This document shows positions 10,110-15,753 of a stretch of DNA of 64,000 bases, in pieces. Within the stretch, counting starts at the first letter, position 1. Every line of letters starts with the position of its first letter. Made by a program: the position numbers and the translations under genes. The notes beneath the pieces are model-generated. The model ran no database searches and was not told the DNA's origin. It saw only the letters and a list, made by a program, of their open reading frames with translations. The stretch lies in the NCBI RefSeq assembly GCF_916618755.1, contig NZ_CAKAKB010000002.1:62001-126000 (forward strand). The letters are read 5' to 3'. Source of the DNA: Actinotalea sp. Marseille-Q4924 (GTDB taxonomy: Bacteria > Actinomycetota > Actinomycetes > Actinomycetales > Cellulomonadaceae).

Positions 10110-10940
10110 TCAGCGGCCGCCGCGCTGCATGCGGATCGCCCGGACGGTGAGCTGCGTGGCCGCGACGACGACGAGGAGCGCGAACAGCACGGTCGACGCC
10201 CGCGGCGGCAGCAGGAAGGCCAGCGACGCGCCTCCGAACGACGCCACGGTCGCTCCCAGCCCGACGACCGCCCCCGCCCGCAGGTCCACCATGCGCCCCC
10301 GCAGGTTCGTCACGGTGCCCATGATCGCCGTCGGCAGCATCGTCAGGAGGGACGTGCCCTTGGCGGCGAGGTCCCCCTGGCCGAACAGCGCGATGAGGAC
10401 GGGCACGAGGATCACCCCGCCGCCGATCCCGAACAGCCCGGACGCCACCCCCATGAACAGGCCGGTGGCGACGAGGGCGAGCACGACCAGCGGCGAGAGC
10501 TCGATGTCCGCGCCGCGCTCGGGCACGGTGAGGAACATCCGGATGGCCACCGCGACGAGCAGCGCGATGAACAGCCACCGCAGCCAGGCCATCGGGATGC
10601 GCCGCAGGAGGCGGGCGCCGACGTAGGAGCCCGCGATGCCGCCCACCGCGACGATCCCCGCGACGACGACGTCGACGCTGTCGTTGGCCAGGTAGGTCGC
10701 GGACCCGACGAGCGCGGCGGGGATGATCGCGGCGAGCGACGTCGTCGCGGCCTGCTTCTGGTTGAGCCCCGCCATGAGGATGAGCAGCGGCACCATGAGG
10801 ATCCCGCCGCCGACGCCGAACAGCCCCGACATGACCCCGCCGAGGACGCCCACGACGAGCAGCGCCCACCACCGCTGAGGGCGCTCGGGCGGCGTGGCAG
10901 GGTGGTCGGACGGCGGGGAGGGCGGGGGGCTGGACGTCAC
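10110..10940 (-). CDS. TauE/SafE family permease (sulfite/organosulfur exporter-like)
   Basis: 276 residues with a Pro-rich cytoplasmic head of about 20 residues and eight predicted membrane helices. The two halves each carry the family's Gly-rich repeat: GGVMSGLFGVGGGILMVPLL and GVASGLFGIGGGVILVPVLI. Members move sulfite, sulfonates or related anions, but assignment of a substrate is not possible here. The start is GTG 10940; a TAGCAT -10 box ends 6 bases before it, so the transcript is probably leaderless. It is convergent with the DHA2 gene and has no sulfur genes next to it. Confidence 0.88.
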   Translation of the reverse strand: MTSSPPPSPPSDHPATPPERPQRWWALLVVGVLGGVMSGLFGVGGGILMVPLLILMAGLNQKQAATTSLAAIIPAALVGSATYLANDSVDVVVAGIVAVGGIAGSYVGARLLRRIPMAWLRWLFIALLVAVAIRMFLTVPERGADIELSPLVVLALVATGLFMGVASGLFGIGGGVILVPVLIALFGQGDLAAKGTSLLTMLPTAIMGTVTNLRGRMVDLRAGAVVGLGATVASFGGASLAFLLPPRASTVLFALLVVVAATQLTVRAIRMQRGGR

Positions 10941-11017: not shown

Positions 11018-11371
11018 TCAGTCGGTCGTCGGCCCGAGGGGGATCCGGTTGAGGTGCTCGTCCGGGCGGGCGTCCGCGCCGGCCGGGCCGAGCGGGATGC
11101 GGTTGAGATGCTCCTGGCTCAGACGGTCCGGCACCTGGGCCGGGACGGCAGCGGGTGCGGTGGTGGTGGAGAACACCATCGGGGCGGTGAGGCCCACGGC
11201 GCCGCCGAGGAGGAGCGCGGCCGTCGTGAGGCCGACCAGGCGGCGGCGGGAGATCGTCGAGGTCGGGCGGCCGGCGTCGGACCGGCCGGCCGCGCCGCCG
11301 AGGGTCGGCGACGTGGCGGTGGTGGCAGGGGTGGTGACAGGGAGGCGCACACTGCGCTGTGTGGTGCTCAT
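11018..11371 (-). CDS. Small exported protein with two EHLNRIPLGP repeats
   Basis: 117 residues. A Thr/Ser-rich polar N-terminus is followed by SRRRLVGLTTAALLLGG (about 41-57) and a hydrophobic helix to about residue 64, a long signal sequence or membrane anchor with a twin-arginine-like start. The mature part is short, Pro/Ala-rich, and contains EHLNRIPLGP twice (87-96 and 105-114), 18 residues apart, with the second copy three residues from the C-terminus. No known family is recognised. It is divergent from the large SARP-STAND-WD40 regulator, and SARP-like direct repeats (11416-11433) lie between them, so it is a probable regulatory target. A peptide precursor or surface ligand role is my inference. 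Confidence 0.7.
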   Translation of the reverse strand: MSTTQRSVRLPVTTPATTATSPTLGGAAGRSDAGRPTSTISRRRLVGLTTAALLLGGAVGLTAPMVFSTTTAPAAVPAQVPDRLSQEHLNRIPLGPAGADARPDEHLNRIPLGPTTD

Positions 11372-11415
11372 GGCACTCACGGTGCGCACGCACCGGTACG
11401 CGCAGGGCTCCGAAG

Positions 11416-11433
11416 CGGTATCCGTCCGGTATG
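11416..11433. promoter_or_regulatory. Direct repeats CGGTATC/CGGTATG with 11-bp period (SARP-like site)
   Basis: CGGTATC (11416-11422) and CGGTATG (11427-11433) repeat with a period of exactly 11 bp. SARP regulators typically bind heptameric direct repeats spaced by four bases. The site lies between the divergent small exported protein and the SARP-type regulator. Confidence 0.5.
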
Positions 11434-11475
11434 CGACACCTTGACCGGGTTGCACCGACCTCGGGACCATGCTTC

Positions 11476-14400
11476 ATGAGCATCCAGGTGCTCGGCCCGC
11501 TGCGCGTGGCGGGAGTCGCGTCGCTCAGCCCTCGGGAACGTGCCCTGTTGGCGGTCCTGGTCCTCCGCGCAGGCATGTCCGTCCGCGCCGACGAGCTCGC
11601 CGACGCCCTCTGGGGGGACCAACCGCCGGTCACGTGGCCCAAGCAGGTCCAGGCTTCCGTGGGTCGCATCCGACGCGTGCTCGGCACTGGCCGGGTGGTG
11701 ACCACCCCGGCCGGCTACCGGCTCGTGCTGGACGCCGACGCCGTCGACGCCCGACGCTTCGAGGACGCCGTCCGGCGCGGGCGGCTGCACGCCGCCTCCG
11801 GGGAGAACGACCGCGCCGTGGTGGCGTTCGCCCGGGCGCTCGCCCTGTGGGACGGGACTCCCTACCCGGAGCTGGCGGGGTGGGAGCCGGCACGCGCCGA
11901 GGCCGAGCGGCTCCTCGAGGCGCGCAGGACGGCGGAGGAGGACTTCCTCGAGGCCCGCCTCGCCGTCGGTGAGCACCGCGGGGTCGCCGCGGACGCGGAG
12001 CTCGCCGTCCGCGTCGAGCCGTTGCGTGAGCGACGGTGGGCCGCCCTCTGCCTCGCGCAGTACCGGTGCGGACGTCAGGCCGACGCGCTCGCCACGCTGC
12101 GTCGCGCCCGTCTCACCCTGGCCGACGAGCTCGGCGTCGACATCGGGCCCGAGCTGGCCGCCCTGGAGCGCGACGTGCTGCGCCAGGACCCGCGCCTCGG
12201 TGCGGGGGAGCGACCGCCGCCGGCGAGCGAGACCTGCCCGTACAAGGGGCTCGCTCCCTACGACGCCGCGGACCACGACGTCTTCTACGGGCGTGACGAG
12301 GAGGTGCTCGGCTGTCTCGACCGTCTCAGCATCACGCCGCTGCTCGTCCTGACGGGACCGTCGGGCTCCGGGAAGAGCTCCCTCCTGCGGGCAGGGCTCA
12401 TCGCCACCCTCCAGCGCCGTGGGCACCGCACGGCCCTCGTCGTCCCGGGTGCCCACCCCCTCGCCACGCTCGACGCCGCGCTGGCCGGCGACGACGAGCC
12501 CTCCGTGGTCGCCGTCGACCAGATGGAGGAGCTGTTCCTCCTGCAGCACGACCGGCGCGAGGTCGAGGCGTACTGCCGGCGCCTCGCGGAGGTCGCGACG
12601 AGCGGGACGACGGTGCTCGTCGCGATCCGTGCCGACCAGGTGAGCGGCCTGCGCAGCGCAGCGGCGCTCGCGGACCTCGCCGAGCAGGGGATGCACCTCG
12701 TGTCCCCGCTGACCGGCGAGGCCCTGCGCGCGGCGATCCAGGGGCCGGCGGTGCGTGCCGGGCTCCGGCTCGAGCACGGACTGGTCGACCTGCTCCTCCG
12801 GGACGTCGCGGGGCAGGCCGGTGCACTGCCGCTGCTGTCGCACGCCCTCGCGGAGACGTGGCGGCGGCGCGACGGCTCGGTCCTCACGGTGGAGGCGTAC
12901 CAGGAGACCGGCGGCATCGAGGCGGCCGTGGCGCGCTCGGCGGACCGGCTCTACGAGAACCTCCGGCCGGAGGACCGGCAGGTCTGCCGGTCGCTGCTGC
13001 TCCGCCTGGTCGTGCCGGCGCCCGGCGGCATCGCGACGCGCCGCCGTCTCCAGCTGTCGGCGCTGGGGCACGACGTCGCTCGCGACCGGGTCCTCGCCGA
13101 GCTGGTCGGCACGCGGCTGCTCATAGAGGACCAGGGGACCGTGGAGATCGCCCACGAGGCACTGGTCCACGCGTGGCCACGGCTGAGGACGTGGATCGAC
13201 GAGGACGGGGCCGGCCTGCGCGCGATGCGTCACCTCGTCACCTCCGCGGAAGGGTGGGAGGCGCTCGGCCGGCCGGCGAGCGAGCTGTACCGCGGCGCGC
13301 GTCTCGACGCGGCCCTGGAGTGGCGGGCGGCCACCCGACCGGACCTCACGGCGACGGAGGCGTCCTTCCTCGAGGCGTCGTCCCGGCAGCGCGACGACGA
13401 GGCGGACGCCGCGTACGCCGCCCTGCAGCGGGAGGCGCGCCAGAGCCGACGACTCCGCACGCTGCTCGTCACGGCGGTGATGCTCCTCGCCGTGTCGCTC
13501 GTCGCGACGGGTGTGGCCGTCGTGAGCCGGTCATGGGCGAGGGACCAGGCGGCCGCGGCCCGCGACGCCCGCGACGAGGCCAGGCTCGCCGCCCTGGTGA
13601 ACGCGTCCCTGAAGATGCGGTCGACCGACCGCACCGTCGCCGCCCTCCTGGCGGTCGAGGCCCAGCGGCGCTGGCCCGGCAGCGCGGGGAGCCGGTCGGC
13701 GCTGCTCGGGACCTTCGTGAGCTCCCCGGGCTTCCTCGGGCACACCTGGGTCGGGGAGCGGGAGGGCCGCGACCATGTCGGCGAGGGGCTCGCCGGGGCG
13801 CTCCTGCCGGACGGCAGAACTGCGGTCGTGGCGCTGGCCGGCTCCCAGCCCGTGGTGCTCGACGTCGTCACGGGGGAGATCGATCGCCGGTTCGCCGACG
13901 TCGACCTCCCCGGTGGCCCGGGCGCCGTGGTCCGCGTCAGCGCCGACGGCGCGACGGCCGTGCACTACACCGTCGGGTACGGCCCCACGCCATGCACCGC
14001 GTCGGACGACCCCCTGGCGGTCGCGCCGCTCGCTGCCCGCGCGGCGCTCCCCGGGTGCGCGACGGTGACCACCTACGACGTCGTCTCGGGAGCGACGGTC
14101 CAGGGACCGACCGTCCTGACCTGGCCCTCCGGGGAGATGGCGCTGAGCCCGGACGGGAGGACGGTCGCCCTCACCGACGGCGAGGACGGGACGGTGCTGC
14201 TGCTCGAGGCGCGGTCCGGCCGGTCGGTCGCCGTCGTCCCGCCCCTGCCCGCCCCTCCCGTCCGTGAGTGGGGGAGGGGAGCGGTCGCCTTCTCGCCCGA
14301 CGGTCGGCTCTTCGTGGGATCGACGGCGGGACCGGTCCGGGAGGTCGAGCCGGCGACCGGGCGTGTGGTCCGGCAGCTCCCGGCCCCGCCGTTGTCGAGC

Positions 14401-15753
14401 AACACGAACCTGTGGGTGGGACCCGACGGGCGGGTCGTGGGGACCGGGCACCAGCACGTGGTGGCGCTGGACGGGGACGCCGGTCCAGGTGACGACCCGC
14501 TCCTGTGGACGCGTCCCGTGTCCGGCAACCGACGCTCACCGTGCCCGTGGGCGGCGTTCTCCGCCGAGGCGGGCCGCCTGTGGTGCGGGAGCTTCCACGG
14601 CGTGATCGAGGAGCGGGACCTCGCCACGGGGGAGCTCCTCGGACGGATCCGCACGACCCACTTCGGCAACGTGGGCTGGATGGAGGCGACGGCGGACGGT
14701 CGGGAGCTCGTGGTGTTCTCCGTGGGGGTCCCGGCCGTGCTGCGCTGGCGGCTCGACGGCTCGGGACCGGTCTCCCGGCTCACCGCGCCGGCGCACGTGC
14801 TGTGGGACGGGTTCGACCGGGGCTCGGGTCACCTCCTCACGGCCGCCCCCTACGAGGACGAGCCGGAGCGGTTCACGGTGTGGGACCCCGCGTCGGACGT
14901 GGCGGTGCTCGACCTCGGCGACCTCCGCCGTGCCGCCTGGGTCGCGCCGCGGACGGTCGCCGGTCTCGACCCCGACCAGGGCGCGCTCGTGACGCTCGAC
15001 GTCGCCACCGGCCGGCGGTCGGTGCTGCGGGACGTCGAGCCGGCCGCGGTGGGCCTCCACCCGGCGCCGGACGGCACGATCTTCGTGATCGTGCCCGACG
15101 GCACCGTGACTCGCGTGGATCCCGCCACGGGGCGGCTCGTCGGACCACCGCTGCCAGGGCACGGGCGCCCCATGACGGTCACGGCCGACGCGTCGCTCCG
15201 GACGGTCGTGGTCACGACGGTCGGCCCGGACGTCACCTCGCTCGAGGACGACGTGACCGTCCGGTTCGACCCGGTGAGCGGCGAGATGGTCGGACCGCCG
15301 CTGACCGGGTGGTTCCAGTCCGCCGTCCACGACGACCTCCTCGTCGTCGCGCGGGCCCTCTCGATCGCGTTCTACGACCTCGACACGCTCGAGCTCCGCC
15401 GGGAGGTCGCGGGAGCGCCCGCGGAGGTCGAGCGCCTCGAGCTGAGCGCGGACGGCGCACTGCTCGCCGTCACCTCCCGGGACCAGTCCGTGATCCTCTA
15501 CGACGTCGTCACCGGGACGCGCCTCGGAGACCCCATCCCGACGGCGGCGCCGCCGGAGGGCCGCGCCGCGGCGCTCCGGGAGGACGGGCGCGAGCTCGCG
15601 GTCGCCTCCGCTGCCGGCGTGGTCGTGTGGGACCTCGACCCGTGGGTGATGATGCGGGCCGCCTGCCGTCTCGCCGGTCGCGAGCTCACGGCCGGCGAGT
15701 GGGCCACGCACCTCGAGGGCTACGGGCCCCGTCGGGCCACCTGCGACGTGTGA
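11476..15753 (+). CDS. SARP-BTAD-STAND NTPase-beta-propeller transcriptional regulator
   Basis: 1425 residues from ATG 11476. Order of parts: an OmpR-like winged-helix SARP DNA-binding domain (about 1-85, ending TPAGYRLVLD), the BTAD helical domain (about 90-235), a STAND-type NTPase with Walker A GPSGSGKSS (294-302) and the acidic VVAVDQMEELF strand as Walker B, a predicted membrane helix at about 660-683 (LLVTAVMLLAVSLVATGV), and a long C-terminal beta-propeller with repeated SPDGR-type WD40-like turns (about 760-1425). The helix suggests the DNA-binding part faces the cytoplasm and the propeller the exterior, a one-protein sensor-regulator. The direct repeats at 11416-11433 are the likely binding site. 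Confidence 0.88.
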   Translation: MSIQVLGPLRVAGVASLSPRERALLAVLVLRAGMSVRADELADALWGDQPPVTWPKQVQASVGRIRRVLGTGRVVTTPAGYRLVLDADAVDARRFEDAVRRGRLHAASGENDRAVVAFARALALWDGTPYPELAGWEPARAEAERLLEARRTAEEDFLEARLAVGEHRGVAADAELAVRVEPLRERRWAALCLAQYRCGRQADALATLRRARLTLADELGVDIGPELAALERDVLRQDPRLGAGERPPPASETCPYKGLAPYDAADHDVFYGRDEEVLGCLDRLSITPLLVLTGPSGSGKSSLLRAGLIATLQRRGHRTALVVPGAHPLATLDAALAGDDEPSVVAVDQMEELFLLQHDRREVEAYCRRLAEVATSGTTVLVAIRADQVSGLRSAAALADLAEQGMHLVSPLTGEALRAAIQGPAVRAGLRLEHGLVDLLLRDVAGQAGALPLLSHALAETWRRRDGSVLTVEAYQETGGIEAAVARSADRLYENLRPEDRQVCRSLLLRLVVPAPGGIATRRRLQLSALGHDVARDRVLAELVGTRLLIEDQGTVEIAHEALVHAWPRLRTWIDEDGAGLRAMRHLVTSAEGWEALGRPASELYRGARLDAALEWRAATRPDLTATEASFLEASSRQRDDEADAAYAALQREARQSRRLRTLLVTAVMLLAVSLVATGVAVVSRSWARDQAAAARDARDEARLAALVNASLKMRSTDRTVAALLAVEAQRRWPGSAGSRSALLGTFVSSPGFLGHTWVGEREGRDHVGEGLAGALLPDGRTAVVALAGSQPVVLDVVTGEIDRRFADVDLPGGPGAVVRVSADGATAVHYTVGYGPTPCTASDDPLAVAPLAARAALPGCATVTTYDVVSGATVQGPTVLTWPSGEMALSPDGRTVALTDGEDGTVLLLEARSGRSVAVVPPLPAPPVREWGRGAVAFSPDGRLFVGSTAGPVREVEPATGRVVRQLPAPPLSSNTNLWVGPDGRVVGTGHQHVVALDGDAGPGDDPLLWTRPVSGNRRSPCPWAAFSAEAGRLWCGSFHGVIEERDLATGELLGRIRTTHFGNVGWMEATADGRELVVFSVGVPAVLRWRLDGSGPVSRLTAPAHVLWDGFDRGSGHLLTAAPYEDEPERFTVWDPASDVAVLDLGDLRRAAWVAPRTVAGLDPDQGALVTLDVATGRRSVLRDVEPAAVGLHPAPDGTIFVIVPDGTVTRVDPATGRLVGPPLPGHGRPMTVTADASLRTVVVTTVGPDVTSLEDDVTVRFDPVSGEMVGPPLTGWFQSAVHDDLLVVARALSIAFYDLDTLELRREVAGAPAEVERLELSADGALLAVTSRDQSVILYDVVTGTRLGDPIPTAAPPEGRAAALREDGRELAVASAAGVVVWDLDPWVMMRAACRLAGRELTAGEWATHLEGYGPRRATCDV

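Follow-up and report, generated by a model that had tools for sequence, protein, structure and literature searches.

Why should a very large transcriptional regulator of the SARP type and a small exported protein be encoded back to back in the genome of Actinotalea sp. Marseille-Q4924, separated by a short region of phased repeats? The pair lies in a 64,000-nucleotide stretch of this genome (contig NZ_CAKAKB010000002.1, positions 62,001 to 126,000, forward strand), which is referred to as the window and whose first letter is position 1. An earlier note, made from the sequence alone, had described an exported 117-residue protein with two identical decapeptides starting 18 residues apart, divergent from a large regulator with a membrane helix and a propeller. 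Both descriptions hold: the reading frame, its hydrophobic segment and the two copies are confirmed, and the regulator is borne out by domain matches, a conserved helix and a structure model. We tentatively interpret the two as a dedicated one-component surface-signalling pair, in which a membrane-bound SARP switch would drive the divergent gene for a surface protein that is in turn probably read by the propeller, although our confidence in this interpretation is somewhat below even. The features on which it is built are compiled in Table 1.

Table 1. Features of the regulator-partner locus in the window, and divergent partners with their motifs at homologous loci.
Feature	Position	Strand	Remark
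SARP-nSTAND1-TM-double-propeller regulator, 1425 aa	11476..15753	+	start ATG 11476 common to homologues
SARP part: winged-helix DNA-binding domain and BTAD	11521..12180	+	Pfam domains, PDB matches
nSTAND1 NTPase, Walker A GPSGSGKSS	12238..13275	+	PF20703
Predicted membrane helix	13456..13524	+	position conserved in homologues; N-terminal side arginine-rich
Predicted extracytoplasmic part: helical linker and two beta-propellers	13528..15750	+	C-terminal Cys pair, structure model
Small exported motif protein P0001, 117 aa	11018..11371	-	ORF (ATG at 11371, stop at 11018); orthologue in G004
Hydrophobic export/anchor segment LVGLTTAALLLGGAVGLTA, SRRR just before	11183..11239	-	read from translation; no lipobox cysteine
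EHLNRIPLGP, first copy	11084..11113	-	
EHLNRIPLGP, second copy	11030..11059	-	four silent differences to first copy
Three-box SARP-type operator GGTAC-N17-GGTAT-N6-GGTAT	11395..11432	.	pattern and homologous loci; box starts 11395, 11417, 11428
Candidate -10 CACCGT of small gene	11379..11384	-	10 nt past last box, 7 nt before ATG
TTGACC, candidate -35 of regulator gene	11441..11446	+	TTGAC in nearly all homologous loci
L065 lipoprotein			DDPRGRHGVP x3
L071 lipoprotein			DDLSP x3
Agromyces cavernae L044 lipoprotein			DLAESRAQMSREL x3
L066 lipoprotein			RYV-x-SL x2
L068-L070, L076 anchored proteins			four or five YEPISGGLPDYA-like units
L093 lipoprotein of G658 (another order)			RDHTNRMDFGD and NSSRLDFGDD
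Partner family f17 (L081, L088, L089, L090)			signal peptide, conserved IDDNALELLQLG, C-terminal membrane segment

Architecture of the regulator

The open reading frame of the regulator as listed from 11359 is too long; its conserved start is the ATG at 11476, from which residues are counted below. The SARP part exceeds the Pfam cut-offs for the DNA-binding domain (PF00486) and for BTAD (PF03704, E = 1.1e-31) and is matched in a PDB search by the structures of AfsR and EmbR. The nSTAND1 assignment is likewise clear (E = 6.7e-101), WD40-like domains were also found, and the helix between the STAND module and the propeller recurs at the same place in aligned homologues. Since the SARP part must reach the DNA inside the cell and the helix follows an arginine-rich stretch, the SARP and STAND modules presumably reside inside and the propeller outside. 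An AlphaFold run on the outer part, using 27 homologues, yielded a tandem of two propellers (mean pLDDT 89.9, pTM 0.88), whose best matches among solved structures are WD40 propellers. The model superimposes onto the prokaryotic propeller of Thermomonospora curvata (5yzv) with Z = 30.3 over 285 residues, and onto both propellers of Apaf-1 (3sfz) with Z = 29.3 over 548 residues at an rmsd of 9.7, which reflects a different orientation of the domains. A C-terminal pair of cysteines (residues 1397 and 1423) shows no variation among the 27-28 homologues long enough to cover it; as a sequence feature this pair fits, but does not prove, an oxidising location of the propeller outside the cell. Across the family, the SARP-STAND part is 44-51% identical to that of the window regulator compared with 18-33% for the propellers, the closest relative being set aside. 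In PADLOC, no match to an anti-phage STAND system was found beyond short matches at the P-loop.

The small exported motif protein

The 117-residue protein consists of a polar N-terminus of 40 residues, a hydrophobic segment following SRRR, and a short polar C-terminal part that carries the decapeptides. Its self-match is far stronger than that of shuffled versions (z = 9.7). The two copies of EHLNRIPLGP are encoded by GAGCATCTCAACCGCATCCCGCTCGGCCC and GAGCACCTCAACCGGATCCCCCTCGGGCC, which differ in four of ten codons, always at the third position and silently; the peptide has thus been kept while the DNA drifted, and a fresh DNA duplication is not indicated. The protein has no match in Pfam, NCBIfam or PADLOC. 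It is too divergent for a scan against genome contigs, which returned no relative, and its nearest relative, in the Actinotalea genome G004, was retrieved only by a whole-genome search. Weaker matches below it (E > 1e-5) were set aside as low-complexity noise, and a match in the own genome (C6:8858-9133) was dropped because it lies inside another SARP gene.

Among 19 genomes examined within the genus, the full regulator occurs in two, that of the window and G004. In G004 the divergent small gene is kept; its product is 44% identical overall and carries the motif as EHTNRIPLGP and EHLNRVALGP, so that the motif survives while most of the other sequence does not. The earlier note had made conservation of the pair in relatives a test of its reading; pair, motif and operator are found again in G004, and many families show the layout. 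In 296 other genomes of the order, permissive DNA patterns for the motif gave zero matches. A lipobox cysteine is absent after the signal segment in both Actinotalea proteins but present in many homologous partners. Tat export, which SRRRLV might suggest, is not claimed because the twin arginine is missing in G004. In both Actinotalea genomes a gene for a TauE/SafE-like permease follows the small gene (10110-10940 in the window, 459-1289 of locus L007), which accordingly keeps its neighbour on that side.

Operator and candidate promoters

Between the two genes, the earlier note had recognized heptamer repeats with SARP-type spacing at 11416-11433. The 11-bp phasing is real, but the element is not confined to this pair: it comprises three boxes from 11395 onwards, phased at 0/22/33 bp, in keeping with the 11- or 22-bp distance between the direct repeats of SARP targets. 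The same form, GGTAY-N17-GGTAY-N6-GGTAY or a variant with phasing 0/22(21)/33 bp, is found upstream of regulators throughout the family. The strict two-box pattern occurs in 19 of the 28 upstream regions covered by that scan, compared with about 0.13 expected from dinucleotide shuffles; in an assumption-free test, three like 7-mers at 0/21-22/32-33 reach, at 22 of 32 loci, a level attained by at most 3 of 200 shuffles; and a looser three-box model scores high at 31 of 34 loci, all these counts being taken over related and hence not independent loci. The three boxes of a locus have in some lineages shifted jointly to another sequence, namely GGTGT (L077, L087), GATAT (L072) or GGTAC (L086, L044).

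Of the 18 loci whose boxes are spaced by 22 bp, 9 have a -10-like NANNNT on the side of the small gene exactly 9 nt past the last box, counted from the 5-nt core of the box, and none of the other offsets between 4 and 15 occurs in more than two of them; in the window the distance is 10 instead of 9 nt. In published SARP targets the repeats follow each other at 11 or 22 bp, and 8 bp separate the 3' repeat from the -10 element (PMC10936776), and the placement at the family operators is close to this rule. An ATG follows the hexamer within 6-7 nt at L065, L066, L071, G004 and Agromyces cavernae (Acav); these short distances point to leaderless transcripts, and the transcript of the window's small gene may be leaderless as well. 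Within the own genome the operator pattern is found with no or one mismatch only at 11395-11432, and the remaining hits need two mismatches and are no commoner than in a reversed control. The regulator therefore looks dedicated to this locus. The claim that the SARP domain activates the small gene is, as far as sequence can tell, well supported by the conserved three-box operator and the position of the -10-like element.

Divergent partners in the wider family

A family search with an alignment of four regulators as query gave 30 matches in 23 of 396 genomes of the order and further matches in other orders of the class. At most of about 34 homologous loci a divergent gene encodes an exported or lipid-anchored protein. 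Several SARP genes instead follow a gene oriented in the same direction or are accompanied by a tandem paralogue. Where the partners carry repeats, the repeated sequence is lineage-specific (YEPISGGLPDYA, DDPRGRHGVP, DLAESRAQMSREL and others). Internal repeats with z of at least 5 are present in 11 of 23 small partners and in none of ten unrelated exported-looking proteins (an eleventh listed protein, L099, was left out as a member of the family itself); given the small control set and the relatedness of the partners, this enrichment counts as support, not as proof. Clear repeats are lacking in about half of the small partners. At a few loci the partner is a larger secreted protein; those put through a Pfam scan include one cupin-like and one CapA-like protein, the rest having no Pfam match. 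In the IDDNALELLQLG family of partners (L081, L084, L088, L089 and L090) the membrane segment ends with SRRxHAHAAHPA, and neither repeats nor a Pfam match were found; at L089 two such genes stand in a row.

The motif of G004 and that of L093 share HTNR-x-x-[LF]G across orders, at a nominal p of 0.004 in about 200 pair comparisons; this likeness is only suggestive, and the two receptors are not sisters. In the turned loci L093 (1088-1426) and L095 (1060-1491), lipoproteins with HTNRMDFGD and RNRMDFND come near to EHLNRIPLGP, possibly by shared ancestry of the motif or by transfer. Neighbouring SARP-propeller paralogues form the pairs L068/L085 (G457), L072/L086 (G140), L077/L087 (G216), L080/L088 (G274), L079/L089 (G418) and L093/L095 (G658), in most cases each with its own operator, and local duplication may feed the diversification of receptors and partners. 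The own genome codes for a second large regulator of 1737 residues with SARP and nSTAND1 domains (L061, G000:C6:10210-10647), at whose locus no divergent exported gene was found.

Proposed mechanism and alternatives

From the domain architecture, the pairing, the operator geometry and the conservation of the motif, all apparent at the level of sequence, we propose the following scenario. The large protein would span the membrane, the SARP activator and the STAND switch facing the cytoplasm and the double propeller the exterior. Once the propeller is engaged, the STAND module would release the SARP domain, which would bind the three phased boxes and activate the divergent gene and probably its own as well. 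The divergent gene would yield a small protein kept outside the membrane, on which a short linear motif is displayed in multiple copies. This motif would most likely be recognised by the propeller of the same regulator, either as its ligand or as a partner in feedback, and propeller and motif would have co-diversified from lineage to lineage. The topology, activation of the target by the SARP domain and binding of the motif by the propeller are what we infer; of the things that the propeller might read, the motif of its partner seems the most likely. This is indicated by the multivalent copies, by their conservation in a fast-changing protein and by the different motif of each lineage, and it fits the joint occurrence of diversified repeats and diversified propellers. 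Caution is advised by the partners without repeats, and the small and the larger secreted proteins among them imply that not every partner has to be a motif ligand.

These repeat-less partners are an argument for a reading that we regard as distinctly possible, in which the small protein is solely an output. The propeller would sense a cell-wall fragment, envelope stress or a foreign protein, and the small protein would be an effector whose repeats bind the wall or another surface partner. The cupin-like, CapA-like and C-terminally anchored partners point to expression of an exported product as the conserved trait, and the conserved operator speaks for regulation alone. However, with a single such operator in the genome, the entire system would be devoted to one small protein, and conserved motifs in a fast-changing sequence beside a fast-diverging propeller fit recognition by that propeller.

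A further-reaching version of the surface-signalling pair would be a receptor-ligand pair of a new class, whose propeller reads lineage-specific multivalent motifs on a co-regulated surface protein, with receptor and motif co-diversifying and like and unlike neighbours being told apart; we consider this rather unlikely.

That the repeats are cut out and released to neighbours as a free multi-copy signalling peptide is improbable. An exported protein with a motif present twice in identical form close to its C-terminus does recall multi-copy precursors, and repeats occur in many homologues, but the flanks differ within the window protein and from those in G004 (LSQ/AGAD, RPD/TTD, LDR/SGPV, LST/GTGE) and thus offer no common cleavage site, and no recurrent protease or exporter gene was found beside the pair within 1.5-kb flanks. 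Most partners, moreover, are lipoproteins or look anchored; together with the lack of a processing site around the repeats, this makes a freely diffusing peptide less likely than a surface-tethered motif protein.

Similarly improbable is a role of the small protein as an anti-activator, which would keep the regulator inactive until the motif protein is lost or masked and the SARP domain thereby triggered. Negative feedback by a divergent, co-regulated partner is a common arrangement in bacteria, but the sequence says nothing on the sign of the feedback, and multivalent repeats hint at clustering, by which STAND proteins are usually activated. Inhibitors do hold some STAND proteins inactive (PMC10936776), which counts for this role.

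Relation to known systems

AfsR and other large SARPs of Streptomyces resemble the regulator in their N-terminal SARP domain, central STAND NTPase, C-terminal sensor and target repeats 11 or 22 bp apart (PMC10936776). AfsR is, in contrast, soluble, contains NB-ARC and TPR domains and serves antibiotic regulation, whereas the window regulator has nSTAND1, a membrane helix, a double propeller and a dedicated divergent exported partner. Correspondingly, the AfsR equivalog model matches only residues 5-254 and scores far below its cut-off, and the NB-ARC/TPR layout without membrane segment, typical of AfsR-type large SARPs, is replaced by nSTAND1, helix and propeller. The regulator is therefore a SARP by domain and operator, but by its sensor no large SARP of the AfsR type. 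EmbR (PDB 2fez) shares the SARP-type DNA-binding and BTAD domains but is soluble and carries an FHA domain. Apaf-1 likewise joins a STAND NTPase to two beta-propellers, but it is a eukaryotic, cytosolic protein with a CARD effector and cytochrome c as ligand, and a common fold shows no common function. A 2024 review divides SARPs into the classes small, medium, large and SARP-LAL, none with WD40 repeats or a membrane anchor (PMC10972967). A literature search, with subscription journals mostly outside its coverage, yielded nothing relevant on SARPs with WD40 repeats, a propeller or a membrane anchor, or on such partners.

Similar in layout are proteins of Streptomyces and Nocardia (L045, L047) with nSTAND1, membrane helix, propeller and a similar C-terminal segment, whose N-terminal part is not a SARP. 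Such nSTAND1-TM-WD40 proteins with other N-termini are widespread, so that the receptor half is of a known kind, here preceded by a SARP; what appears new is the motif protein paired with it and the operator that the loci share. Other nSTAND1 proteins are associated with a caspase-like or similar peptidase region, either before the STAND module or in the preceding gene (L048 3227-7480, L091 742-1533), which suggests that the same membrane STAND receptor is preceded by varying effectors.

The recurring layout, together with the same DNA switch in relatives that carry other repeated motifs, suggests a cell-surface signalling pair that has not been described before. SARPs have been known as soluble proteins that regulate antibiotic gene clusters; a branch anchored in the membrane, bearing an Apaf-1-like double propeller on the outside and linked through a conserved three-box operator to one diversified surface protein, would extend them to direct sensing at the cell surface. 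Operator and motif are both defined sharply enough for immediate testing, and the matched propeller-motif pairs in many genomes would provide material for testing how bacterial STAND receptors switch.
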